Source of the DNA: an uncultured bacterium
GTDB lineage: Bacteria; Armatimonadota; HRBIN16
Assembly: GCA_938027655.1 (NCBI GenBank)
Contig: CALJAP010000180.1
Span: 1-35,684 of the forward strand
Direction of reading: 5' to 3'
Length of the DNA stretch: 35,684 bases
The position numbers were made by a program, and so were the translations under genes. The notes beneath the pieces are model-generated. The model saw only the letters and a list, made by a program, of their open reading frames with translations, ran no database searches and was not told where the DNA came from. Below are positions 5,081 through 17,231 of the stretch, piece after piece (position 1 is the stretch's first letter; each line of letters opens with the position of its first letter).

Positions 5081-5306
5081 CCTCAATAATTAACTTTTTG
5101 CTCCGATTATCAATACATCTGTCCCCTCGCGGGGGCAAGTGGTCCGTTAAGCTTCGCCTGCGGCGGGCGACGTTTCCACTGAGCGGTTCTCCTCTCATTC
5201 TGGACGTTAGCGGCGAGAGAAGGGGGCTCCCCTGCTGGGCCAATCCTTCACGATAGCGCATTTGCAGCAGAGCAGCTGAGTCTTGCAACTTTTTCACCGC
5301 TTTGCA
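5081..5306. other. Divergent intergenic region between korA and the fluoride-riboswitch operon
   Basis: About 225 bp between two divergent promoters. It holds GC-rich imperfect hairpins, for example CCCCTCGCGGGGG near 5125-5137, and no credible coding frame. I see no further recognisable signal in it. Confidence 0.35.
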
Positions 5307-5315
5307 TGGTATAAT
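5283..5315 (+). promoter_or_regulatory. Extended -10 promoter of the riboswitch operon
   Basis: TGGTATAAT at 5307-5315 combines a perfect TATAAT with the upstream TG of an extended -10 element. A TTGCAA at 5283-5288 is 21 nt away, too far for a standard -35, so the extended -10 probably carries recognition. Transcription would start near 5322, about 15 nt before the aptamer. Confidence 0.7.
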
Positions 5316-5337
5316 GGAAATAGCAAACAATCGCAAA

Positions 5338-5405
5338 GGCGATGGAGGTCCGCCTGCCCTTCGCTAGAGGGGCGAACCGCCCGAAGGAGGCTAATGGCTC
5401 CTGTT
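5338..5405 (+). promoter_or_regulatory. Fluoride riboswitch (crcB motif) aptamer
   Basis: The sequence matches the crcB/fluoride architecture. Stem P1 is GGCG (5338-5341) with CGCC (5351-5354), closing the loop AUGGAGGUC. A linker with an extra hairpin (GCCCTT with AGGGGC) follows. Next comes a short stem, GCC (5379-5381) with GGC (5389-5391), and then the conserved-type tail CUAAUGGCUCCU. The loop GGAG can pair with tail CUCC (5398-5401) to give the long-range pseudoknot of this class. The Pseudomonas-type aptamer has the same spacing: GAUG, six bases, then the closing P1 strand, with a GCUGAUG-type 3' segment. The tail reads CCUGU instead of the more usual CCUAC, and the inner stem is short. 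Fluoride binding with Mg2+ would stabilise the pseudoknot and allow read-through of the overlapping terminator. Confidence 0.85.
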
Positions 5406-5428
5406 CGGATGAACAGTGAGCCGTTTTT
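5396..5428 (+). terminator. Intrinsic terminator, riboswitch expression platform
   Basis: GGCTCCTGTTC (5396-5406) pairs with GAACAG-T-GAGCC (5411-5422): eleven base pairs with one bulged T and a GGAT loop, followed by G and T5 (5424-5428). Its 5' arm contains the pseudoknot strand CTCC of the aptamer, so pseudoknot and terminator are mutually exclusive. This is the textbook layout of a switch that turns transcription on when ligand is bound. The first gene begins 20 nt downstream. Confidence 0.88.
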
Positions 5429-5448: not shown

Positions 5449-6081
5449 ATGCATCTGCCGGAGATAGCGCTGGAAGAGGCACTGCAGGAAGGCGAATGCG
5501 CTCTGTGCTGGCTGGCGCAGAAGCAACTGTTGCGTCGAGTGGATACGCTCTTTGCCGAACATGTCAACGATCCGCAGTGGCGACAGTTGCTGCGGGAAGG
5601 CAAAGGTTTCTGTGCCTATCACGCCCACCTGGTGCTATCCCGAGCAGATGTGCTTTCTCTATCGATTATCGCTGAAGACCTGTTAACGCATATCTCGATA
5701 ACTGCTTCAACGAAACGGGCACGCAGCGCGTGGCATTGCCAGTTGTGCGAGGCGCAGGCGCATGACATGGAGCAAATGGCGAAGCTGCTGGCACAACTGC
5801 TACGTCAGGCGGAATGGCGCGTACGCTACGAGGCAGGCAAAGGGCTTTGTCTGCCCCACCTGCGACAGGTGCTCATGAATGCCTGCCCGGAGGTGCAGAC
5901 CTGGCTCACCGCCAACGAGAGCCAGCGATGGCAAGCCCTGCGCAAGCAGCTGCAGGAGGTTATTCGCAAGCACGACTACCGCTTCCAGCATGAGCCGTGG
6001 GGCGAGGAGATAGGCAGCTGGCGACGGGCGATGCACAAGCTCTACGGCGTCTTTGCTGAGGAGGTTCACAATGAACGATAG
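5449..6081 (+). CDS. DUF6062 family protein, zinc-ribbon-like
   Basis: A 210-residue cytoplasmic protein that I assign to DUF6062 from its internal pattern. It has two similar halves, each with a C-x2-C and a C-x2-H pair: GECALCWL and GFCAYHAHL in the first, WHCQLCEAQAH and GLCLPHLRQVL in the second. The residues suggest two metal (zinc) sites. The segment EHVNDPQWRQLLREGKGFCAYH is typical of the family. No biochemical function is established that I know of. The start at 5449 (MHLPEIAL) has AGGGGTT upstream and lies just after the riboswitch terminator; an earlier in-frame ATG at 5416 falls inside the terminator and is rejected. It is the first gene of the fluoride-switched operon. Its last 11 bases overlap the next gene. 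Confidence 0.75.
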   Translation: MHLPEIALEEALQEGECALCWLAQKQLLRRVDTLFAEHVNDPQWRQLLREGKGFCAYHAHLVLSRADVLSLSIIAEDLLTHISITASTKRARSAWHCQLCEAQAHDMEQMAKLLAQLLRQAEWRVRYEAGKGLCLPHLRQVLMNACPEVQTWLTANESQRWQALRKQLQEVIRKHDYRFQHEPWGEEIGSWRRAMHKLYGVFAEEVHNER

Positions 6082-6526
6082 CCACCGAAGACACCTGTTC
6101 GCGCTACTGGTGCAGATGGAAGATACGGTCAGCCGTATCACTCAGGCAGGCTGGATGGGCATTTCGCCGTCCGGTGGGGGACAGCGATTGACCCCTTTGC
6201 CCCCCTCACAATGGCGGATGCTTCAAGAAGCTCTGGAAAGACTGGTGGACAGCTACCACGATGCGCTCAACCGCCTGGTGCCTGAACTGACGCAGCAACA
6301 CGAGCAGCCAGAACCCATTGAAACCACTTACTACTGGCTACGGCTGCTGCTGGGTAGCCTGCACGACTCGCTCCTGCCTGAGCTGGACCCCGAACGGTTT
6401 GAGAAGCGGTACGGCAGTCTGAGTGAGGAGGAACGGGAGTCGCTACGTCGGTTACAACGCACCATCGAGCGCGAGCTGAAACATGTGCAGGACATCGCGC
6501 AGATGCACTTTCTGCCAAAACGATAA
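6071..6526 (+). CDS. Hypothetical protein in the fluoride-riboswitch operon
   Basis: A 151-residue hydrophilic protein with no signal peptide, membrane segment or family that I recognise. It is predicted mostly helical. The C-terminal third (SEEERESLRRLQRTIERELKHVQ split by few turns) is rich in Glu, Arg and Leu and could form a coiled coil. The start at 6071 (MNDSHRRH) has GAGGAGG seven bases upstream, inside the end of the DUF6062 gene, and the two genes overlap by 11 bases, so they are likely translationally coupled and may act together. It is followed by the antiporter gene after 18 bases. Confidence 0.65.
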   Translation: MNDSHRRHLFALLVQMEDTVSRITQAGWMGISPSGGGQRLTPLPPSQWRMLQEALERLVDSYHDALNRLVPELTQQHEQPEPIETTYYWLRLLLGSLHDSLLPELDPERFEKRYGSLSEEERESLRRLQRTIERELKHVQDIAQMHFLPKR

Positions 6527-6544
6527 GGAGGTTTCCACAGAAGA

Positions 6545-7720
6545 ATGAACGTCTGGTGGACGGCGTTTGTCTGGATCGCTCTGGCGCTAGCCGCATCGGT
6601 GGTTTCCGTTCGTCTGGCGTTGAGCGTTGCGCTGGCGGAAATCCTGTTCGGCGTGCTGGGAGGCAACCTGCTACACATCCAGCCCAACGAGTGGATCAAC
6701 TTTCTGGCAGGGCTGGGCGGTGTGTTGCTCACCTTTCTGGCAGGCGCGGAGATTGAGCCTGCAGCGATGCGACAGCACTGGAAGGCAGCGCTGGTGATTG
6801 GCTTCGTTTCGTTCCTGGCGCCGTTCCTTGGGGCGATGGCGTATGCCTACTATCTCGCAGGTTGGGAACCCAACGCGGCGAAGATTGCCGGCGTTGCCCT
6901 GTCTACCACATCGGTCGCCGTGGTGTATGCGGTGATGATTGAAACCGGCATGAACCGCACCTCGCTGGGCAAGCTGATACTTGCCGCCTGCTTCGTCACC
7001 GATTTGGGCACGGTGGTCGCACTAGGGTTGCTGTTTGCTCATGCGAATATCTGGTTGCTGGTGTTCATCACCGTACTGGCGGTCACGCTGGCGATAGCAC
7101 CGAGCCTCACCCGCTGGTTTTTCCGTGTGGTTGGCGCGCATACCAGCGAGCCACAAATCAAGTTCGTCCTGCTGATGTTGCTACTGCTTGGTTCGCTGGC
7201 GGTGAAAGCAAACAGCGAAGCGGTGCTGGGCGCCTACCTGCTGGGGCTGGTGCTGGCGGGTACGATGGAGAAAAACAGAGATTTTATGCACCGCATCCGT
7301 GCAATGACCTTCACCCTGCTGACGCCCTTCTACTTCTTGAAGGCAGGCTCTTTCATCTCCTTGTCTGCCCTGTGGGGTGCAGCGGGGGTCATCACCGTGC
7401 TGCTGGGCGTGAAGATGGCTACCAAGATTGCCGGGTGCTACCCGCTGTGCCGCGCTTTCCGAATGCCTCATCGGGAAGCCACCTACACTACCCTGTTGAT
7501 GAGCACCGGACTGACCTTTGGTACCATCTCCTCGCTGTTCGGTTTAACACACGGATATATCACCCAGTCCCAGTACACGGTGCTGGTCACAGTGGTTATC
7601 GGTAGCGCGCTGGTACCGACCCTCATCGCGCAGACCTTTTTTAAGCCGTCGGTGCAGGAGGAGATGCAAGCACACGCGCCCATGCGGCGCGAATCCAGTC
7701 CTGCTTACGAGGAGGGATGA
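6545..7720 (+). CDS. CPA2-family monovalent cation/proton antiporter
   Basis: A 391-residue polytopic membrane protein with roughly 11-13 hydrophobic segments across its length. It resembles the membrane domain of KefB/NapA-type Na+(K+)/H+ antiporters without a C-terminal TrkA-N domain. Landmarks are FLAGLGGVLLTFLAGAEIE in the N-terminal third, the unwound-helix region AGVALSTTSVAVVYAVM, and the ion-site helix AACFVTDLGTVVALGLLF, in which the pair before GTV is Thr-Asp rather than the Asp-Asp of electrogenic antiporters. NHA-type antiporters are among the known gene classes behind fluoride riboswitches. AAGGAGG lies about 13 nt before the ATG. The next gene follows after 3 bases. Ion specificity cannot be read from sequence. 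Confidence 0.88.
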   Translation: MNVWWTAFVWIALALAASVVSVRLALSVALAEILFGVLGGNLLHIQPNEWINFLAGLGGVLLTFLAGAEIEPAAMRQHWKAALVIGFVSFLAPFLGAMAYAYYLAGWEPNAAKIAGVALSTTSVAVVYAVMIETGMNRTSLGKLILAACFVTDLGTVVALGLLFAHANIWLLVFITVLAVTLAIAPSLTRWFFRVVGAHTSEPQIKFVLLMLLLLGSLAVKANSEAVLGAYLLGLVLAGTMEKNRDFMHRIRAMTFTLLTPFYFLKAGSFISLSALWGAAGVITVLLGVKMATKIAGCYPLCRAFRMPHREATYTTLLMSTGLTFGTISSLFGLTHGYITQSQYTVLVTVVIGSALVPTLIAQTFFKPSVQEEMQAHAPMRRESSPAYEEG

Positions 7721-7723
7721 CCT

Positions 7724-8146
7724 ATGTATACACGCATTCTGGTCGGTTTTGACGGTTCGGAGGGGGCAGAGCGTGCGTTAAACGCGGGACTCGCGCTGGC
7801 AAAGGCACTCGAAGCCGAACTGCATGTGATTATGGTGGAGGAGGACCTGCCCAAATATGCCGCCACTATCGGCGAATACGACGAGGTGAAACAACAGCGC
7901 GACGCCTACTTCGCGCAGCTGGAGAAACAGGTGCACCTCGCTGCGCAGCTGGCAGGTGTATTGGTGCAAACGCATATCGTTGCAGGACATGAGGTGTGGT
8001 CTATTGTGGATTTCGTGAAGCACCATCAGGTAGACCTGGTGGTTATCGGGCACCAGGGGCATTCCACCCTGCACGAGCGGGTGTTCGGCAGTACCGCCTC
8101 CTCTATCGTGGCGCATGTGCCCTGTCATGTGCTGGTGGTAAAGTAG
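7724..8146 (+). CDS. Universal stress protein, UspA family
   Basis: A 140-residue single Usp domain. It begins YTRILVGFDGSEGAERAL, where the Asp at position 10 is the nucleotide-contacting residue. It ends with the ATP-binding signature VIGHQGHSTLHERVFGSTAS, matching G-x2-G-x9-G-(S/T), followed by IVAHVPCHVLVVK. It is therefore expected to be an ATP-binding member (the MJ0577-like group). It lies 3 bases after the antiporter gene, and Usp/antiporter pairs of this kind are common. UspA genes are also known downstream of fluoride riboswitches. It may regulate or protect the neighbouring transporter, but this is inference. Confidence 0.93.
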   Translation: MYTRILVGFDGSEGAERALNAGLALAKALEAELHVIMVEEDLPKYAATIGEYDEVKQQRDAYFAQLEKQVHLAAQLAGVLVQTHIVAGHEVWSIVDFVKHHQVDLVVIGHQGHSTLHERVFGSTASSIVAHVPCHVLVVK

Positions 8147-8177
8147 CGAGCGCAATCTTTCTCTGGAGGTGTGCAGG

Positions 8178-9971
8178 ATGCTTACCAGCTTCTCGGCTGC
8201 CCGACAACAGGTAACCAGTGCTCTGGATGTTCTCGTTCGCCTTGCCTCCGAATGTGGGGTAAAACAGGCGCAGCTGGTGGCTTCCGATGCGCTGCATCGC
8301 TTGTCCGAAAATCGCTTCAACCTGGTCGTGTTCGGCGAGTTCAAGCGAGGCAAGAGTACCTTCCTTAACAGCCTGCTGGGGCGTGACGTGCTGCCCACAG
8401 CGGTGATACCGCTTACCTCCATTGTCACCATTGTGCAGCATGGGCAACAGGAGCACGCGGTAGTGCGCTTCCTCAGGGGCGAAGAGGTGACCGTTCCCCT
8501 CGAACAGATTGAAGACTATATCACGGAGACCGCCAACCCCGAAAACCGCAAGGGGGTTGCACGGGTAGAAGTGTTTTTGCCTGCCCCCCTGTTGCGCGAT
8601 GGGGTCAGGCTGGTGGATACACCCGGCGTCGGCTCTGTGTACGAGCACAACACCCAAGTCGCGCAGGAGTTTCTGCCTCACGCGGATGCAGCGGTGTTCC
8701 TGGTCGCCGCCGACCCACCGATCAGCAAAACAGAACGCGAGTTCCTGCGGCTGGTGCGCGACTATGCGGTGAAGCTGTTCGTTGTGCAGAATAAGATCGA
8801 TAACCTCACCGATGAAGAGCTGAACCAGTCTCTGCAGTTTACCCGATCGGTCATCGCCCAGGAGTTGGGAGGGGATTCGGTACGCATCTATCCGCTGTCA
8901 GCCAGGCAGGCATTGATAGCGAAGCTGCGCGGCGACGAAAAGAGGCTGGAAGAGAGCGGGTTGCCTGAGTTCGAACGAGATTTGGACGATTTTCTGACCC
9001 GCGAGCGAGGTAATGTCTCCCTGCTTTCCGCTATCAACACCGCCCTGCTCACGGCAGACGCTGTCCGTGCCAGTATTGACCTAGAGATGCGCGCTGTGCA
9101 GATGCCGCTGGAAGAGCTGGAGCGTCGGCTGTCAGAATTTCAGATGCGGCTGACTACTCTGCGCAAACAGCGTGAACAACATCTCTTCCTGCTTAAGAAG
9201 CTCGTGCACCAGCAGGTTCTAGAGCAACTGGACGCACACCTTGCCAGCATGCAATCGGCGAACCACCGTCCGCTGTATGAGAAGCTTGCCGGGGTCTGCC
9301 GCGATGGGCGATCCTCTCCGCTCAAGCTGATCGAAGAACTGAACCGCCTGATGCCCCGGTGGGTAGAGGAGACGGTCGCGGAGTGGCAGCAACATGAGGC
9401 AGAGCGCCTCTCCGCGACTCTGAGCGAGAAGCTGCAGCCTTTCACGGAAGAGGTAAACGCCTTTGTTGAGCAGGTGCAACGCCTTTCCGAAGACGTCTTC
9501 GAGGTGCGCTGGCAGACGCTCGCTCACGAAACGGCTCTGGCGGACTGGAGCCGCTTCTATGTGCGCGTGTGGGAAGTGCGTGTGAAGTTTGATTTCACCG
9601 TGATGCCGATGTTGATGCTGCTGCCACGCCGCTGGGTGTGTGAATGGGTGAAACGCGCCGCGTGGCATCGGCTGTGGGAACAGTTCCATATCCACTGCGG
9701 GCAGGCGCGGTATGACCTCGCCCGCCGAATCGAGGAGGCGATTGGCGAATACATACGCGCTCTGGACACACGTGTCGAAGAGACCGCTCAAACCATCGAA
9801 ACGGTGGTGCGCCAGGCGATCCAGGCAAAAGCAGAGGGCGAGGCAGTTGCTAATGCCACTCTTGCCCGGCTACAGGAACAGCAACAGCAGGTGGAAACGC
9901 TGGCAGAGGAACTGGTCTACCTCCACGAGAAACTAACCTCGCCTTTCACTGAGGGAGCGTATGCATCGTGA
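8178..9971 (+). CDS. Dynamin-like GTPase family protein
   Basis: A 597-residue large GTPase. The G domain occupies about residues 45-260: P-loop FGEFKRGKSTFLNSLLG, switch threonines around TAVIPLTSIVT, DTPGVGSVYEHN (G3), and NKID (G4). A long helical region follows (about 300-470), with heptad-like Leu/Glu/Arg stretches. A hydrophobic patch near residues 475-490 (FTVMPMLMLLPRRWV) could be a membrane-touching paddle, and the C-terminal part is coiled-coil-like. Bacterial dynamin-like proteins bind and reshape membranes or repair them under stress. The start at 8178 is set by GGAGGTG; the ORF's earlier GTG is part of that Shine-Dalgarno. It overlaps the MFS gene by GTGA (4 bases). Membership in a fluoride-switched operon is unusual. 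Confidence 0.85.
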   Translation: MLTSFSAARQQVTSALDVLVRLASECGVKQAQLVASDALHRLSENRFNLVVFGEFKRGKSTFLNSLLGRDVLPTAVIPLTSIVTIVQHGQQEHAVVRFLRGEEVTVPLEQIEDYITETANPENRKGVARVEVFLPAPLLRDGVRLVDTPGVGSVYEHNTQVAQEFLPHADAAVFLVAADPPISKTEREFLRLVRDYAVKLFVVQNKIDNLTDEELNQSLQFTRSVIAQELGGDSVRIYPLSARQALIAKLRGDEKRLEESGLPEFERDLDDFLTRERGNVSLLSAINTALLTADAVRASIDLEMRAVQMPLEELERRLSEFQMRLTTLRKQREQHLFLLKKLVHQQVLEQLDAHLASMQSANHRPLYEKLAGVCRDGRSSPLKLIEELNRLMPRWVEETVAEWQQHEAERLSATLSEKLQPFTEEVNAFVEQVQRLSEDVFEVRWQTLAHETALADWSRFYVRVWEVRVKFDFTVMPMLMLLPRRWVCEWVKRAAWHRLWEQFHIHCGQARYDLARRIEEAIGEYIRALDTRVEETAQTIETVVRQAIQAKAEGEAVANATLARLQEQQQQVETLAEELVYLHEKLTSPFTEGAYAS

Positions 9972-11137
9972 AAACACTCTCACGTTCGGTGCTTTTTGTG
10001 GTGCTGTTGGGGCTGGTAAGCCTCTGTGCGGATATGACCTACGAAGGCGCGCGCAGTATCACCGGTCCTTTTCTCGGCACGCTGGGCGCGAGCGGAGCAG
10101 TGGTGGGCGTCGTGTCCGGGCTGGGCGAGCTGGTCGGGTACGTACTGCGTCTGGTCTCCGGTTACCTCAGCGACCGCACACGGCGTTACTGGTTGCTCAC
10201 CTTTACCGGCTACACGGTCAACCTGCTGGCGGTTCCTCTGCTTGCCCTGACAGGGCACTGGCTGTGGGCGTCCACGCTGATTGTGATAGAACGGCTCGGC
10301 AAAGCCATCCGAACACCTGCCCGCGACGCGATGCTTTCCCATGCCACCAAACAGATAGGGCATGGATGGGGTTTCGGTTTGCACGAGGCGATGGACCAGA
10401 TAGGCGCGGTGCTGGGACCGCTGATTGTTTTCGCTACCCTCTCTGTCCACAACGATTATCGTCTGGGGTTTGCGGTTCTGCTTGTCCCTGCGCTACTGGC
10501 GTTGATCGCCCTCACTGTCGCACGGTTCCAGTTTCCTCGCCCGCAGGATTTAGAGGCGAAGGCGGTTACGCTGCAGACACGGGGGTTTACCCCCACCTAC
10601 TGGCTGTACCTGGGGGCGGTGGGGCTGGTGGCTGCAGGCTATGCGGACTTTCCGCTGATGGCGTATCACTTCGGCAAACAGCAGCTGGTCTCTTCCAATC
10701 AGATTGCCCTGTTCTATGCGCTGGCGATGGGTGTGGACGCCGTGGGCGCGCTCGTGCTGGGGCGGTTGTTTGACCGCATCGGCTTCGGTACGCTGGTGCT
10801 GGCAACGCTGGTTTCCGCCGGATTCGCACCGCTGGCGTTTCTGGGCGGCTTCTTCGGAGCGGTGACCGGAGCCATCCTGTGGGGTCTTGGCATGAGCGCG
10901 CAGGAATCGGTGATGCGTGCAGCGGTCGCGCGTCTCATCCCCTCCGAGCGTCGCGGCACGGGCTATGGAGTCTTTCATACTGGCTACGGGTTCGCATGGT
11001 TCGCCGGTAGTGCACTCATGGGGTGGCTATACGACCGCTCGGTGGTGGGGTTGGTCGCGTTTTCGGTGCTGACGCAGATGGCGGCGCTGGCGGTGTTCAT
11101 GGTACTGGCGCGAAAACACAATCGCCACCTACTTTGA
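9968..11137 (+). CDS. MFS transporter
   Basis: A 389-residue polytopic protein with about 12 hydrophobic segments, of the major facilitator superfamily. The loop between helices 2 and 3 has the MFS signature-like GYLSDRTRRYW. The centre of the N-terminal half has GKAIRTPARDAMLSH and GFGLHEAMDQIGAVLGPL, typical of a widespread uncharacterised MFS group. The second-half A-like loop is LGRLFDRIGFGTL. The substrate is unknown; export of a toxic anion or metabolite would suit the operon but is not shown. The GTG start at 9968 overlaps the stop of the dynamin-like gene (GTGA), so the genes are coupled. Its 3' end overlaps the convergent bioY gene by 9 bases, and no terminator is visible between them. 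Confidence 0.88.
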   Translation: MKTLSRSVLFVVLLGLVSLCADMTYEGARSITGPFLGTLGASGAVVGVVSGLGELVGYVLRLVSGYLSDRTRRYWLLTFTGYTVNLLAVPLLALTGHWLWASTLIVIERLGKAIRTPARDAMLSHATKQIGHGWGFGLHEAMDQIGAVLGPLIVFATLSVHNDYRLGFAVLLVPALLALIALTVARFQFPRPQDLEAKAVTLQTRGFTPTYWLYLGAVGLVAAGYADFPLMAYHFGKQQLVSSNQIALFYALAMGVDAVGALVLGRLFDRIGFGTLVLATLVSAGFAPLAFLGGFFGAVTGAILWGLGMSAQESVMRAAVARLIPSERRGTGYGVFHTGYGFAWFAGSALMGWLYDRSVVGLVAFSVLTQMAALAVFMVLARKHNRHLL

Positions 11138-11728
11138 TAGCGGTGGTGAAGCCGTACGGACGCCAATTCGGTGCAGCAGTTTCCACCCTGCGGGCAGTAT
11201 CGCCGTTGCCAGCAGCAGCTTGAACAGGTCACCGGCTACGAACGGGAGAAGCCCCAACGCTATGACCCTATCTGTCCCGACGAAATACGCCAGCCATGCC
11301 AATCCCACCAAGTAGATAACCAGATTGCTTAACAGCATGGCAGCAAAGGCGGTGTGAAGACGCCTGTCCCAGCCCCGCTCCGCTAGCCATCCTGCAAGAA
11401 AGGCGGCGGGCACAAACCCCAACAGGTAGCCACCGGTTGGTCCAAGCAGGTAGGCGGTGCTCCCTTTTGCCCCTGCAAACACGGGTAACCCCGCGCTTCC
11501 CTCCGCTAGATACAACAGCAGACACAAACCGGCGCGACGACTGCCCAACAGAACCCCTGTCAAGAGCACCGCAAAAGTTTGTCCCGTGACGGGAACAGGG
11601 GTAAAGGGAAGCGGGATGGCGACCTGCGCAGAGAGTGCGATGAACAGCGTCCCGCTCAGTACAGATAGGAGATCATAAATGAGGGCGTATGTCGCGGTAA
11701 CCGGTCGAAACAGGTCGGCGTACGTCAT
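11129..11728 (-). CDS. bioY: Biotin transporter S component BioY
   Basis: A 199-residue membrane protein with six hydrophobic segments. It shows the BioY hallmarks VAIPLPFTPVPVTGQTFAVL after the first helix and then LLGPTGGYLLGFVPAAFLAGWLAERG. BioY binds biotin and works alone or with the energy-coupling factor modules (EcfA/A', EcfT). No ECF ATPase or T component is in the window. It starts with an ATG at 11728 whose bases overlap the stop of the hydrogenase-protease gene (ATGA), so it is translated from the same mRNA, an odd partner for a hydrogenase. No BirA box or other biotin operator was recognised. The 3' end overlaps the convergent MFS gene. Confidence 0.93.
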   Translation of the reverse strand: MTYADLFRPVTATYALIYDLLSVLSGTLFIALSAQVAIPLPFTPVPVTGQTFAVLLTGVLLGSRRAGLCLLLYLAEGSAGLPVFAGAKGSTAYLLGPTGGYLLGFVPAAFLAGWLAERGWDRRLHTAFAAMLLSNLVIYLVGLAWLAYFVGTDRVIALGLLPFVAGDLFKLLLATAILPAGWKLLHRIGVRTASPPLSK

Positions 11729-12249
11729 GGCGTCATTTCCTCCTCCTTGTTTCTCTGAGGGGCGGTAAGCATTGCAGCCCCCTCAGCACAAAACGCCCCT
11801 ATTCGCTTGAGTGCTACCTCGATCGCCTTTTCTACCTCGGGTGATAGCTCTTTACCGAGTTCGAAGTGGGTGCTGCGGACGGTAAGCAGATACGCTTGCG
11901 CGGGAGCGGACCCGTACAGCGTCTGCGCCAGAAGGCACAGGTCGGCGGGACCGGCAGAGTGGGTGAAAGAGGCGTTCCCAGACGGTACGGCACAGACGGT
12001 TTCCCACTCCAGTTGTCCTGCGGGTTCTCCCTCGCGTGCATCCACAAAGAGGGCGATGCGGCAGCGGCTGAGTGGTTCGGCAAGCTCGGGAGTCAGCTGA
12101 TGACATGCGATGACCTGCATGCCCTCGGTGGCTTCCTGCTGTAGACGCTCTGCGACCCACCAGCCAAAACCGTCATCTTGCCGAAGAGTATTACCGTAGC
12201 CGATGACCAGCACGGAATAAGATATGGCAAACCTCTCTTGTTCTCCCAC
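11725..12249 (-). CDS. hoxW: [NiFe]-hydrogenase maturation endopeptidase (HoxW/HyaD type)
   Basis: A protein of up to 174 residues of peptidase family A31. After the large hydrogenase subunit receives nickel, such proteases remove its C-terminal peptide. Visible signature elements are VLVIGYGNTLRQDDGFG, with the first nickel-sensing acidic residue, LFVDAREGEPAG with the second, and FTHSAGPADLCLLA with the histidine. The start is not settled. GTG at 12249 has no clear Shine-Dalgarno, and a second GTG at 12213, beginning at VLVIGYG, has GAGAGG somewhat far upstream. It sits 164 bases after hoxH, separated by a strong hairpin and palindromic repeats, and overlaps bioY by ATGA. Its proximity to hoxH argues that HoxH is its substrate. 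Confidence 0.88.
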   Translation of the reverse strand: MGEQERFAISYSVLVIGYGNTLRQDDGFGWWVAERLQQEATEGMQVIACHQLTPELAEPLSRCRIALFVDAREGEPAGQLEWETVCAVPSGNASFTHSAGPADLCLLAQTLYGSAPAQAYLLTVRSTHFELGKELSPEVEKAIEVALKRIGAFCAEGAAMLTAPQRNKEEEMTP

Positions 12250-12413: not shown

Positions 12414-13835
12414 CTACCGCCTCACCTCATCCAGCACCTCGCCCGTTGGCGATAACAGCTGAATATGCAGGGGCATCTGCCCCACAGCGTGTGTGGAGCA
12501 GCTCAGGCAGGGGTCGAAGCAGCGTATCACCGCTTCTACGCGATTAAGCATTCCTTCCTGAATCTGCTCGCCCTTCACGAAGTGCTTCGCCGCCTGCAGG
12601 ATGCCCCGATTCATCGCCAGGTTATTGTGCCCCGTCGCGATAATCAGGTTCGCCCATGTAATGAGCCCATCCTTATCGATACGGTAGTGGTGGATGAGCG
12701 TACCGCGAGGCGCTTCTGCCACGCCGATGCCCTCGCTGCGGTTCGGTCCCGCTACCGCCTGCACGCGCGTATCCAGAATATCCGGCTCGTTCAGCAGCTG
12801 CTGGATGCGCTCCAGCCCGTACAGTATCTCGACCAGCCGAGCATAGTGGTAGTGGAACGAGCTGAGCACCGCGCCTCGCTCCAGCGTACGAAACTCTGAC
12901 CACGCCTCGTCCGCGCGCGGGGTACCGCAACGGTCTACCAGGTTCAGCCGCGCCAGCGGTCCCACGCGATAGACTCCCTCCGGATAGCCAATCGGCTTGT
13001 AGTAGGGGAACTTCAGGTACGTCCACGGCTCCACCGCCTCGCCGATGTAGTCCTGATAATCGTTGGGGTCTAACTTGTCGGCGATGACGTTACCGGCGGA
13101 ATCCACCACGCGGAGCACCCCATCGTAATGCTCCAGCGCACCCGTTTCGGTTACCAATCCCATGAACAGCGAGGGGAAGTTCGCGAAAGTCTGTATCTCC
13201 TCGCTGAACTGGCGGAGCGTCGTTTTGAACCACTCGATAGCGCGCTCGGCGATGTCAATGCCTTCGGGGATACTGGCTAGCATCTGCTCGCGTTTCTCTG
13301 CGCTGAGCGGCTGCGCCACCCCGCCCGGCACAATCCACGAGGGGTGAATGCGCTTGCCAGCCAGCCACTCAATCATCTGCTGACCAATCTGGCGCAGGCG
13401 GATACCGTCGCGTGCCATCTGCGGGTTCGCCTGAATGACGCCCACGATGTTGCGCACGGCGGGGTCGGCGTCCATGCCCAGCAGGAAGTCGGGCGAGGAG
13501 AGGTGGAAGAAGCTGAGCGCGTGTGACTGCACCAGCTGTGCCAGATTGAAAATCCGGCGCAGCTTCTCCGCCGTTTCCGGAATGCGTACTGCCAGCAGGG
13601 CATCGCACGCCTTGCCGGAAGCGATGAGGTGGCTGACGGGACAGATACCGCAGATACGCGCCGTCAGCGCAGGCATCTCACTGAAGCGTCGTCCTTCGCA
13701 AAGCTTCTCAAAGCCGCGAAACTGGGTGATATGGATACGCGCATCGCGCACGATGCCCTGGTCATCCAGCTGGATGGTGATTTTGGCGTGTCCCTCGATG
13801 CGCGTGACAGGGTCTATAGTGACCGTATGTGCCAT
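12414..13835 (-). CDS. hoxH: NAD-linked [NiFe]-hydrogenase large subunit HoxH
   Basis: A 473-residue catalytic subunit. The N-terminal nickel motif is [10 protein letters not shown] (about residues 60-70) and the C-terminal one is DPCLSCSTH (about 441-449), together giving the four cysteine ligands of the Ni-Fe centre. The family N-terminus [12 protein letters not shown] is intact. Beyond the last His there are 24 residues (AVGQMPL onward) that fit the peptide removed by the maturation protease encoded next in the operon. With HoxEFUY upstream, this is a group 3d bidirectional NAD(H)-linked hydrogenase. It starts at 13835 with GGAGGGAGCA before the ATG, 12 bases after hoxY. No hyp maturation genes are in the window. 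Confidence 0.95.
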
Positions 13836-13847
13836 GTTGCTCCCTCC

Positions 13848-14381
13848 TCAGGCTCCAAAGCGCGTCAGCATCGCCATGTCCGGCATCCGGTCTGCCAGCA
13901 GGTCGCTGAGCACGAGGAAAATGGTCTGTGCCGAAGGCGGACATCCGGGAATGAACACATCCACCTTCACCACCTCGTGCACCGGGCGTGCCTTCTCGAT
14001 GAGCGCGGGAACGACCTCACGAGGCACCTGCGGGTGCAGTGTTACGTTCTCCAGATACGCCCGTTGCAGAACCGCATTGACCCCAAACGGGTTGCGCATC
14101 GAGGGCACATTGCCGGTTACCGCGCAATCGCCAAAGGAGACCAGTATCTTCGTGCGCTCGCGCACCATCTGGATCTTATGCAGGTCTTCCTCGCTGCTGA
14201 CCGCGCCTTCCACGAGGGTGATGTCCACCCCCTCGGGGAACTCTTTCAGGTCTACTAGGGGGCTATATACTAAATCCGCCTGCTGGAACAGCTCCACCAA
14301 TCGCTCGTCCATGTCCAGGAAGGACATGTGACACCCGGAGCAGCCGTCCAGCCACACGGTGGCTATTCGTTTCTTGCTCAT
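13848..14381 (-). CDS. hoxY: NAD-linked [NiFe]-hydrogenase small subunit HoxY
   Basis: A 177-residue electron-transfer small subunit. [17 protein letters not shown] near residues 10-26 and later cysteines in [10 protein letters not shown] and IPGCPPSAQ give the four ligands of the proximal [4Fe-4S] cluster. It has no Tat signal and no C-terminal cluster domain, as expected for the short cytoplasmic HoxY of group 3 enzymes. The start at 14381 (MSKKRIATV) overlaps the hoxU stop as ATGA, with GGGAGGAACG upstream. The longer ORF reading back into hoxU is a frame artefact. Confidence 0.95.
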
Positions 14382-15097
14382 CGCCGTTCCTCCCGCATCA
14401 TGGTAAGGTAGGGCAGAAATTGCCGTTTCTTCAGTCGTTCTGAGACCGGCTTGCCCTTCTCGAACAACGCGCCGGTGGGGCATACGTTCACGCACTTGCC
14501 GCAGCTGGTGCATGTTTCCGATTCACCCCACGCTTGGTTCAGGTCGGTGATGACCCGGCTATCGATCCCGCGCCCCATTACATCCCACGTGTGCGCGCCT
14601 TCGATCTCGTCGCATACGCGCACGCACCGCGTGCACAAGATGCACCGGTTGTGGTCCACCACGAACCGCTCGTGACTGGCGTCTACAGGCAGTCGCGGGA
14701 ACCGATAAGGTACGCTCACATGCGTCATGCCCAGCACCTGTGCCATACTCTGCAGTTCGCAGTGTCCGTTCACCACGCACACCGAGCAGATGTGGTTGCG
14801 CTCGGAGAAGAGCAGCTCCAATACCATCCGGCGGTACTTCTGCAGCCGCTCCGATTGGGTATACACCTCCATCCCCTCTTCGACCCGCGTCACGCACGCA
14901 GGCAGCAGGCGCGACACCCCCTTAATCTCCACCAAACACAGTCGGCACGCGCCGATGGGGGTCAGGCCCTGCAGATTACACAGCGTGGGGATGAAGATGC
15001 CGTTTTGCCGGGCGATCTCCAGGATGGTCTCGTCCTCGCGACCGCTCACGTCCCGGTCGTCTATCTTCAGCGTTTTAACGCGAACTGGCTGATTCAT
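14378..15097 (-). CDS. hoxU: NAD-linked hydrogenase diaphorase subunit HoxU
   Basis: A 239-residue iron-sulphur protein related to the N-terminal part of NuoG. The first 80 residues are a [2Fe-2S] ferredoxin-like domain with [24 protein letters not shown] His/Cys cluster segment follows ([19 protein letters not shown]). It ends with two [4Fe-4S] motifs, [13 protein letters not shown] and [16 protein letters not shown]. It carries electrons between the HoxEF NADH-oxidising part and HoxY. The ATG at 15097 (MNQPVRV) has AGGAGGAGC directly upstream, 11 bases after the hoxF stop; the 15-residue ORF extension overlaps hoxF and is rejected. Confidence 0.95.
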
Positions 15098-15108
15098 CCA
15101 TGCTCCTC

Positions 15109-16740
15109 CTACTGACGCATCTGACATACCCCGGCGGGGCACTGCTTATCCACGATGTGGGCAACATACTCATCGCGGAAGTACTGGAGTGTGCTCAGCA
15201 CGGGGTTGGGGGCAGTTTGTCCCAGTCCACACAGGCTGGTGTACTTCACCATGTCGCATAGCTCCTCCAGCAGGGCGAGGTCTTCCATCGTCGCCTCGCC
15301 GGAGGTAATCCTGTTCAGGATGTTGTACATCTGCACCGTACCAACGCGGCAGGGTACACACTTGCCGCAAGACTCGGAAACGCAGAAGTCCATGAAGAAC
15401 TTCGCCACGTCCACCATGCAGGAGGTTTCGTCCATGACGATCATGCCTCCCGAGCCCATGATGGAGCCGACTTTCGCCAACGACTCGTAGTCTACGGGCA
15501 TATCGAGGTACTGTTCGGGAATGCATCCACCCGATGGACCGCCGGTTTGCACCGCTTTGAACCGGTGTCCGTCGGGAATACCCCCGCCGATGTCGAAAAT
15601 AATCTCGCGCAGGGTGATCCCCATCGGCACCTCAATCAAGCCAGTATTCTTCACCCGTCCTGCCAGCGCGAAGACCTTCGTTCCCTTGCTCTTCTCCGTG
15701 CCGATACTGGCGAACCAGTCGCCGCCGTTACGGATGATGGGCGCGATGTTGGCGAAGGTCTCCACGTTGTTAATCAGAGTGGGATAACCCCACAAGCCGT
15801 ACTCAGCGGGGTAGGGTGGACGAGGACGTGGCTGCCCGCGCTTGCCCTCGATGGAAGCAATCAGAGCCGTTTCCTCGCCGCACACGAAAGCGCCCGCGCC
15901 GAGGCGGATGTCCACATGGAAGCTGAAGGTGGTTCCGCAGATATTGTTACCCAGCAGACCGAGGCGTTCTGCCTGTCGGATAGCCGTGCGCAGACGCTTT
16001 ACCGCCAGCGGATATTCGGCGCGCACGTACAGGTATCCCTGGCTTGCACCGACGGCATAGGCGGCAATAGCCATGCCTTCCAGCACGCGGTGTGGGTCGC
16101 TCTCCAGCACGCTGCGGTCCATGAAGGCGCCCGGGTCGCCTTCGTCAGCGTTACAGATGACGAATTTGCGAGTGCCGCCCGCCTTGGCGACGGTGCTCCA
16201 CTTCAAGCCCGTGGGATACCCTGCGCCACCGCGCCCACGCAGCCCACTGCGAGTAATCTCGTCGATAACGTCCTGGGGCGACATATCCTCCAGCACACGA
16301 GCCAGCGCGGTATATCCATCGCGTGCGATGTAGTCTTCTATTTTCTCGGGGTCAATGACCCCGCTGTTTTCCAGTACAATCTTGTACTGCTTGGTGAAGA
16401 AGGACATGTCGGAGGGGCAAACCAGTTGCTCTACCGGCTTCTTGCCCAGACTCTCCACGATGGCGGCGGCGTCGGACTCTGTTACGTTCTGATACATCAC
16501 GCCGTCGGGCTCTACAAGCATCAGCGGGCCCATCGTACACAGACCAAGGCAACCGACGCCCTGTACTTCGCACTCGTTTTCCAGCCCGCGCCGAGTGACC
16601 TCATTCTGCAGTGCGTCGCGGACGCGGTCACTACCAGCAGACAAACAACCCGCCGCCACGCATATCTTGATACGATGCCGAGGTGCAGGACGAGCTTCCT
16701 CCTGGGACTCAGCCAGCTTACGCAGTTCCTCTGGTGTCAT
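15109..16740 (-). CDS. hoxF: NAD-linked hydrogenase diaphorase subunit HoxF
   Basis: A 543-residue flavoprotein of the NuoF type that oxidises or reduces NAD(H). The N-terminal thioredoxin-like [2Fe-2S] domain has Cys27, Cys32, Cys64 and Cys68 ([12 protein letters not shown] and [11 protein letters not shown]). The NADH/FMN domain has [31 protein letters not shown] and [14 protein letters not shown]. The C-terminal [4Fe-4S] motif is [16 protein letters not shown]. The start at 16740 (MTPEEL) overlaps the hoxE stop as ATGA, with GGAGG about 11 nt upstream. A GTG 12 bases earlier lies inside that Shine-Dalgarno, so the shorter start is preferred. Confidence 0.95.
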
Positions 16741-17231
16741 TGCGCCGTCCACCTCCCAATCCGTTCTAATGCCTCTTCGGGTGTCACTTTTCCTGCCACT
16801 TCACCGTCAAAGACCACTGCAGGCGCCAACCCACACGCACCGATACAACGTGCAGTTAACAGCGACAGTTTGCCATCGGATGTGGTCTCGCCCGGTTGAA
16901 CCTGATACTTCTCGGAAATGGCAGACACCACGTGAGGCGCGCCTTTGATGTAGCAGGCGGTTCCCATGCATACCACGCAGGTATGTTCGCCTTGAGGTTT
17001 CAGGGTGAAAAAGTGGTAAAAGGTGGCCACTCCGTACACCTTACTTAAGGGCACCCGAAGTGCTTTTGCCACATATTGCAACGCCTCTGTCTCCAGATAC
17101 CCGAAGGTCTGCTGAACAGAGTGCAGTGTTTCAATCAGCGCATAGGGGTCGTAGCCATGCCGACGCATGGTGGCTTCCACAATACGCCACCGCTTGTCGT
17201 CCGAAGGCGGAGACGGTTTGGTGAAATGCAT
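16737..17231 (-). CDS. hoxE: NAD-linked hydrogenase subunit HoxE
   Basis: A 164-residue NuoE-like [2Fe-2S] subunit. The helical N-terminal part includes [20 protein letters not shown] and the family motif [12 protein letters not shown]. The thioredoxin-like part has cysteines in [14 protein letters not shown] and [13 protein letters not shown]. It is the first gene of the hox operon, so the full HoxEFUYH complement is present. GGAGGAAGCG precedes the ATG, and a promoter is seen about 250 nt upstream. Confidence 0.94.

Follow-up and report, generated by a model that had tools for sequence, protein, structure and literature searches.

A fluoride riboswitch with an overlapping terminator precedes a likely antiporter operon in an uncultured bacterium of the Armatimonadota

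Sequence comparison confirms that the window, as we call the whole stretch of 35,684 nucleotides analysed here, carries a genuine fluoride riboswitch of a well-known class, an ordinary member with a small genus-specific change in its aptamer. The aptamer overlaps an intrinsic terminator, both are conserved within the genus, and genes of the operon behind them are linked to fluoride riboswitches across the phylum. We are highly confident that the element is a transcriptional ON switch for the operon starting at position 5449. The riboswitch is one more representative of a large class, and the operon that it marks matters more.

Results

The window belongs to a genome of 3.53 Mb in 219 contigs, and a cmscan search of its whole length returned a single RNA family, RF01734, at 5329-5410 on the forward strand. 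The match covers the full model (positions 1-64), and its score of 41.6 bits is moderate when set against the gathering cut-off of 34; the E value of 2.2e-8 refers to a search of the entire window with all 4227 Rfam families. A fluoride riboswitch had been called here in the initial annotation, with correct coordinates and sequence, and this significant full-length match to the Rfam crcB model bears the call out. There is one copy in the genome, where no second RF01734 match was found. We infer from the riboswitch family that fluoride is the ligand, and the predicted direction of control comes from the same source.

In the aptamer, stem P1 (5337-5341 paired with 5351-5355, the whole hairpin spanning 5337-5355) closes a loop of nine nucleotides (5342-5350) that holds the 5' pseudoknot strand GGAG (5344-5347), which pairs with CTCC at 5398-5401. 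A 7-bp linker hairpin (5356-5373, -11.8 kcal/mol, z -3.0) stands between P1 and the second conserved stem (5379-5391, GCC 5379-5381 with GGC 5389-5391) and precedes the conserved AACC. The 3' pseudoknot strand is flanked by A5394 and U5402, and this whole stretch (5394-5402) is invariant in the genus alignment; the two flanking bases, which are read here as bases and not as an observed pair, match the linchpin pair A40-U48 of the Bacillus cereus fluoride riboswitch (PMC8752731). Four pseudoknot pairs are sure, and a fifth or sixth is uncertain. The genus loop sets GGAGGUC opposite GGCUCC and leaves at position 5 of the pseudoknot a mismatch or a bulge, presumably either a G-G mismatch or one bulged G with U5349-G5397 and C5350-G5396 bringing the pairs to six.

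The element had also been described as slightly divergent, which it is, but not for the reasons named. The linker hairpin put forward as one of them exists, but it is not unusual, since 42 of the 63 phylum matches are at least 73 nt long, a length indicative of an extended linker or loop, and in several of these displayed inserts a hairpin of different sequence can be made out by eye at the linker position. The CCUGU tail, put forward as the other, is no better a sign of divergence, CCUG- tails being common in the phylum (L004, L020, L021, L023, L024, and others). What sets the genus apart is the P1 loop, overlooked at first, which has nine nucleotides in all four genus loci parsed versus eight in all 18 parsed from elsewhere in the phylum; two phylum relatives (L028 and L030) have a position-5 mismatch in an element with an 8-nt loop. 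With one more loop nucleotide than its relatives, the element could differ in affinity. One may go further and see a degenerate or retuned aptamer, made for a different ligand or responsive only to very high fluoride, a view favored by the long loop, mismatched or bulged at position 5 in every genus member seen, and by an operon that encodes neither a known fluoride exporter nor a fluoride-sensitive enzyme. However, every other conserved core base is kept, the linchpin bases included, and in other members of the phylum genes of these families follow canonical fluoride aptamers; we regard such retuning as very unlikely.

The intrinsic terminator (5396-5428) consists of an 11-bp hairpin (5396-5422) with a bulged U5417, followed by G5423 and T5424-5428. 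The hairpin and its run of five T residues are thus as first annotated, except that the bulge makes the hairpin less than "perfect". Its folding energy of -18.0 kcal/mol compares with -5.8 +/- 2.1 for shuffled sequences (z -5.9). The overlap pointed out previously was verified, CTCC 5398-5401 being shared by the pseudoknot and the 5' arm of the terminator. In the consensus fold the stem is lengthened by up to three pairs into 5393-5395, so that the terminator would take up A5394 besides the pseudoknot strand. Since it uses this strand, and possibly A5394, aptamer and terminator cannot form at the same time, as in the anti-termination scheme published for fluoride riboswitches (PMC11077080, PMC8752731).

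Upstream, sequence and genus conservation point to an extended -10 promoter element, TGG-TATAAT (5307-5315, forward strand), which seven of the eight same-genus sequences share at the corresponding position, the remaining one reading TATACT; transcription would be expected to start at about 5321. A scan with consensus patterns flagged neither promoter nor terminator, the former because there is no good -35 box and the latter because the bulge breaks the search pattern, and its sole terminator-like match was on the opposite strand. In the minimum-energy fold of the leader, a 5' hairpin at 5330-5343 competes with P1; this candidate was dropped because G003, the nearest relative, is the only one to share its sequence. 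A search of the genome with the upstream region 5095-5325 gave no second copy, and a repeated mobile element can therefore be discounted.

Ten genomes of the genus were compared, the window's own included, and the eight that have the riboswitch element provided the alignment. The extended -10, P1, the pseudoknot, the linker hairpin, the second stem, the linchpin bases, the terminator, and its T run are all kept, and the DNA further upstream is poorly conserved. The outer pair of P1 occurs as A-U, G-C, or G-U, the closing pair of the linker hairpin is C-G or U-A in the eight sequences, pairing being maintained in both cases, and in G009 one terminator pair has changed on both sides, from U-A to C-G. 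Such variation is consistent with the structure, without being proof of it, as covariation did not clearly exceed a shuffle control in these eight similar sequences and the GGAG/CTCC pairing is invariant, which cannot show covariation. The stability of the hairpin by itself might suggest a plain attenuator or terminator that binds no ligand, or the likeness to the riboswitch might be accidental, but the E value given above, and aptamer bases that are invariant across the genus where loops and upstream DNA vary, leave this explanation next to no credibility.

From the spacing of the genes, the likely operon extends from 5449 to 11137 and comprises six genes, all on the forward strand and tightly spaced or overlapping. 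The first, whose ATG at 5449 lies after the terminator, encodes a DUF6062 protein with paired Cys/His motifs (5449-6081, 210 aa; PF19538, 84 bits versus a cut-off of 27), and is followed by orfB (6071-6526, 151 aa, predicted helical, no family above cut-off), a CPA2-type cation/proton antiporter (6545-7720, 391 aa; PF00999, Na_H_Exchanger, 142.2 versus 26.2 bits), a universal stress protein (Usp; 7724-8146, 140 aa; PF00582, 105 bits), a bacterial dynamin-like GTPase (8169-9971, 600 aa; PF00350, 109 bits), and an MFS transporter (9968-11137, 389 aa; PF07690, 93 bits). Against NCBIfam TIGR00932, a CPA2 subfamily, the antiporter scores 114 bits, below the cut-off of 238.3, and "CPA2" is therefore a fold-level label here that carries no tested subfamily or substrate. 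The genes stand in the same order across the genus except for G009, where DUF6062 is missing, and for the dynamin-like gene, present only in the window's own genome and as a shortened copy in G005. In most close homologues the Usp gene follows that of the antiporter, and most members of the genus have the MFS gene next to this operon.

The DUF6062 protein has two copies of a C-x2-C ... C-x2-H arrangement (C17, C20, C55, H58 and C97, C100, C134, H137), invariant in three genus members, which suggests two metal sites. AlphaFold models, made from few sequences, had a mean pLDDT of 47 for this protein and 63 for orfB. Beyond the operon, a BioY family gene (PF02632; 11132-11728, reverse strand) is transcribed toward its end. 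Further on, genes identified by their translations alone appear to encode a probable hydrogenase maturation protease (11725-12249) and, next to it on the reverse strand (12414-16752), NiFe-hydrogenase large and small subunits together with NuoG/HoxU-like and NuoF-like subunits.

Linkage to fluoride riboswitches was counted in 151 genomes of the phylum, a gene being scored when it lay on the same strand and no more than 10 kb downstream of a riboswitch. Close homologues of the CPA2 antiporter were linked at 19 of 21 loci, versus one of 37 for distant homologues. In a second, additional sample of phylum genomes, all nine further close homologues had a fluoride riboswitch just upstream, for 28/30 in both samples; the two exceptions are G075, where the gene is found on a short contig but on the opposite strand, and G007, where it starts 40 bases from a contig end. 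Linkage was found for DUF6062 at 31 of 44 loci, for orfB homologues at 18/27, for CrcB at 29/81, and for CLC at 3/74. Leaving out the window's own genus, the counts were 11/12 for the close CPA2 homologues, 24/37 for DUF6062, and 10/19 for orfB. Outside the genus, 12 of 15 relatives of the dynamin-like protein at E < 1e-45 lay downstream of a riboswitch (eight at a distance of 62-258 nt), compared with none of 18 weaker relatives. With one or two riboswitches per genome of about 4 Mb, linkage by chance should be well under 1%.

Several further loci deserve mention. An antiporter 95% identical to that of the window occurs in HRbin16 (L051), which we take to be a member of the Armatimonadota. 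In several of the phylum's families, a dynamin-like gene comes immediately after a fluoride riboswitch of its own (L054, 6521-8278; L066, 534-1769; L067, 551-1786; L070, 2461-4224). The contigs of G039, G075, and G038 (L057, L059, and L054) each have two fluoride riboswitches within a few kilobases along with multiple DUF6062 genes, which may point to expanded fluoride islands.

Neither CrcB/Fluc nor CLC genes had a match in the window's genome or in the other nine of the genus, in a search that gave matches in control genomes and in many other genomes of the phylum. Among riboswitch genomes, with the window's genus counted once, CrcB is present in four of the 13 that have the CPA2 clade versus 28 of the 41 that do not (Fisher p 0.024, a value uncorrected for relatedness and drawn from one comparison among several), and Fluc, CLC, and the CPA2 clade are all lacking in seven riboswitch genomes. 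A search of a collection of genome contigs with the antiporter found only three near relatives.

Within the genus, two types of antiporter occupy the same slot of the operon (window; L083, L084, L086). In type A, TM5 carries a T/N-D motif; type B, found in G001, G004, and G006, has A/S-N together with an Asp gained in LTFD, keeps the Lys of the ion site, and adjoins a Usp that is still >90% identical. The G007 gene (L062/L102) looks chimeric, as its identity to the window's protein is 93% over residues 1-69 and 48% beyond them, and the match contains stops. In G002 (L032) the antiporter ends near residue 171 and runs into residue 101 of the Usp, as if by internal deletion, a fusion that may be an assembly error.

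Discussion

According to the mechanism proposed here, in the absence of fluoride CTCC 5398-5401 would be drawn into the hairpin at 5396-5422 and the polymerase would halt at T5424-5428. Binding of fluoride and Mg2+ would lock the pseudoknot and the A5394-U5402 pair, the terminator would not be formed, and the operon from 5449 would be read, giving the DUF6062 protein, orfB, the CPA2 antiporter, Usp, the dynamin-like GTPase, and the MFS transporter.

Part of this gene content has precedents. Na+/H+ antiporters are the most common genes associated with fluoride riboswitches after the exporters, and have been tied to pH homeostasis under HF influx (PMC11139923), and uspA behind a fluoride riboswitch has been described (PMC5533749), so the linkage of antiporter and Usp is already published. 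Our literature search, which covered few subscription papers, returned nothing relevant on DUF6062, on a fluoride riboswitch with dynamin, on a fluoride riboswitch in Armatimonadetes, or on CPA2 with fluoride export. The fluoride regulon of the phylum would then include families for which no published link to fluoride was found, with member roles that can be proposed from context. The transporter clade, DUF6062, orfB, and the dynamin-like GTPase are marked as probably fluoride-regulated across the phylum, and two of them have no assigned role.

The lineage apparently copes with fluoride in the absence of both known exporters, Fluc and CLC, and the operon may confer its fluoride tolerance, most likely through pH and ion homeostasis by the antiporter. 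It could also be that, with the riboswitch exactly as described, the CPA2-type protein itself exports fluoride or exchanges it for protons, and thus forms a third class beside Fluc and CLC-F. This idea draws on the lack of CrcB and CLC in ten genus genomes, the near confinement of the clade to riboswitch operons (28/30, versus 1/37 for distant homologues), the rarity of CrcB where the clade is present, with the reservation on relatedness given above, and the change of the TM5 Asp to Asn in G001, G004, and G006, odd for a cation/proton antiporter. Yet all relatives of known function are cation/proton antiporters, the literature explains riboswitch-linked Na+/H+ antiporters by pH homeostasis (PMC11139923), four genomes hold both the clade and CrcB, the seven riboswitch genomes mentioned above do without Fluc, CLC, and the clade alike, and the gene is cut short in G002; we therefore consider direct export unlikely. 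We are just as doubtful of its wider form, in which the clade replaces the absent Fluc and CLC-F as a third exporter class and DUF6062 and the dynamin-like protein belong to an undescribed fluoride-defence regulon. A role in pH homeostasis appears likelier for the antiporter than fluoride export.

A distant relative of known structure is NapA, a CPA2 Na+/H+ antiporter (PDB 4bwz, 5bz2, 5bz3), to which residues 13-363 could be aligned (E 1.4e-12). As in NapA, the window's protein has Asp in second place in the TM5 motif and retains the ion-site Lys; unlike NapA, the clade has Thr or Asn as the first residue of the motif, and in G001, G004, and G006 the second Asp is Asn as well, with the Asp gained in LTFD. 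As a whole, the operon resembles the Enterobacter cloacae FRM operon in that a fluoride riboswitch precedes several genes including one for a universal stress protein (PMC5533749). However, the crcB, enolase, phosphoglycerate mutase, and pyrophosphatase genes of FRM (PMC5533749) have no counterpart in the window's operon, which has the antiporter, DUF6062, the dynamin-like GTPase, and the MFS transporter instead. The riboswitch itself is built like the transcriptional ones of Bacillus cereus and Thermotoga petrophila, with P1 and its pseudoknot loop, the second stem, the A and U of the linchpin, and a terminator sharing sequence with the 3' pseudoknot strand. It differs from them in a P1 loop one base longer, an extra linker hairpin, a very stable terminator with one bulge, and a pseudoknot in which four pairs are sure and position 5 is mismatched or bulged, compared with six pairs in the studied examples.
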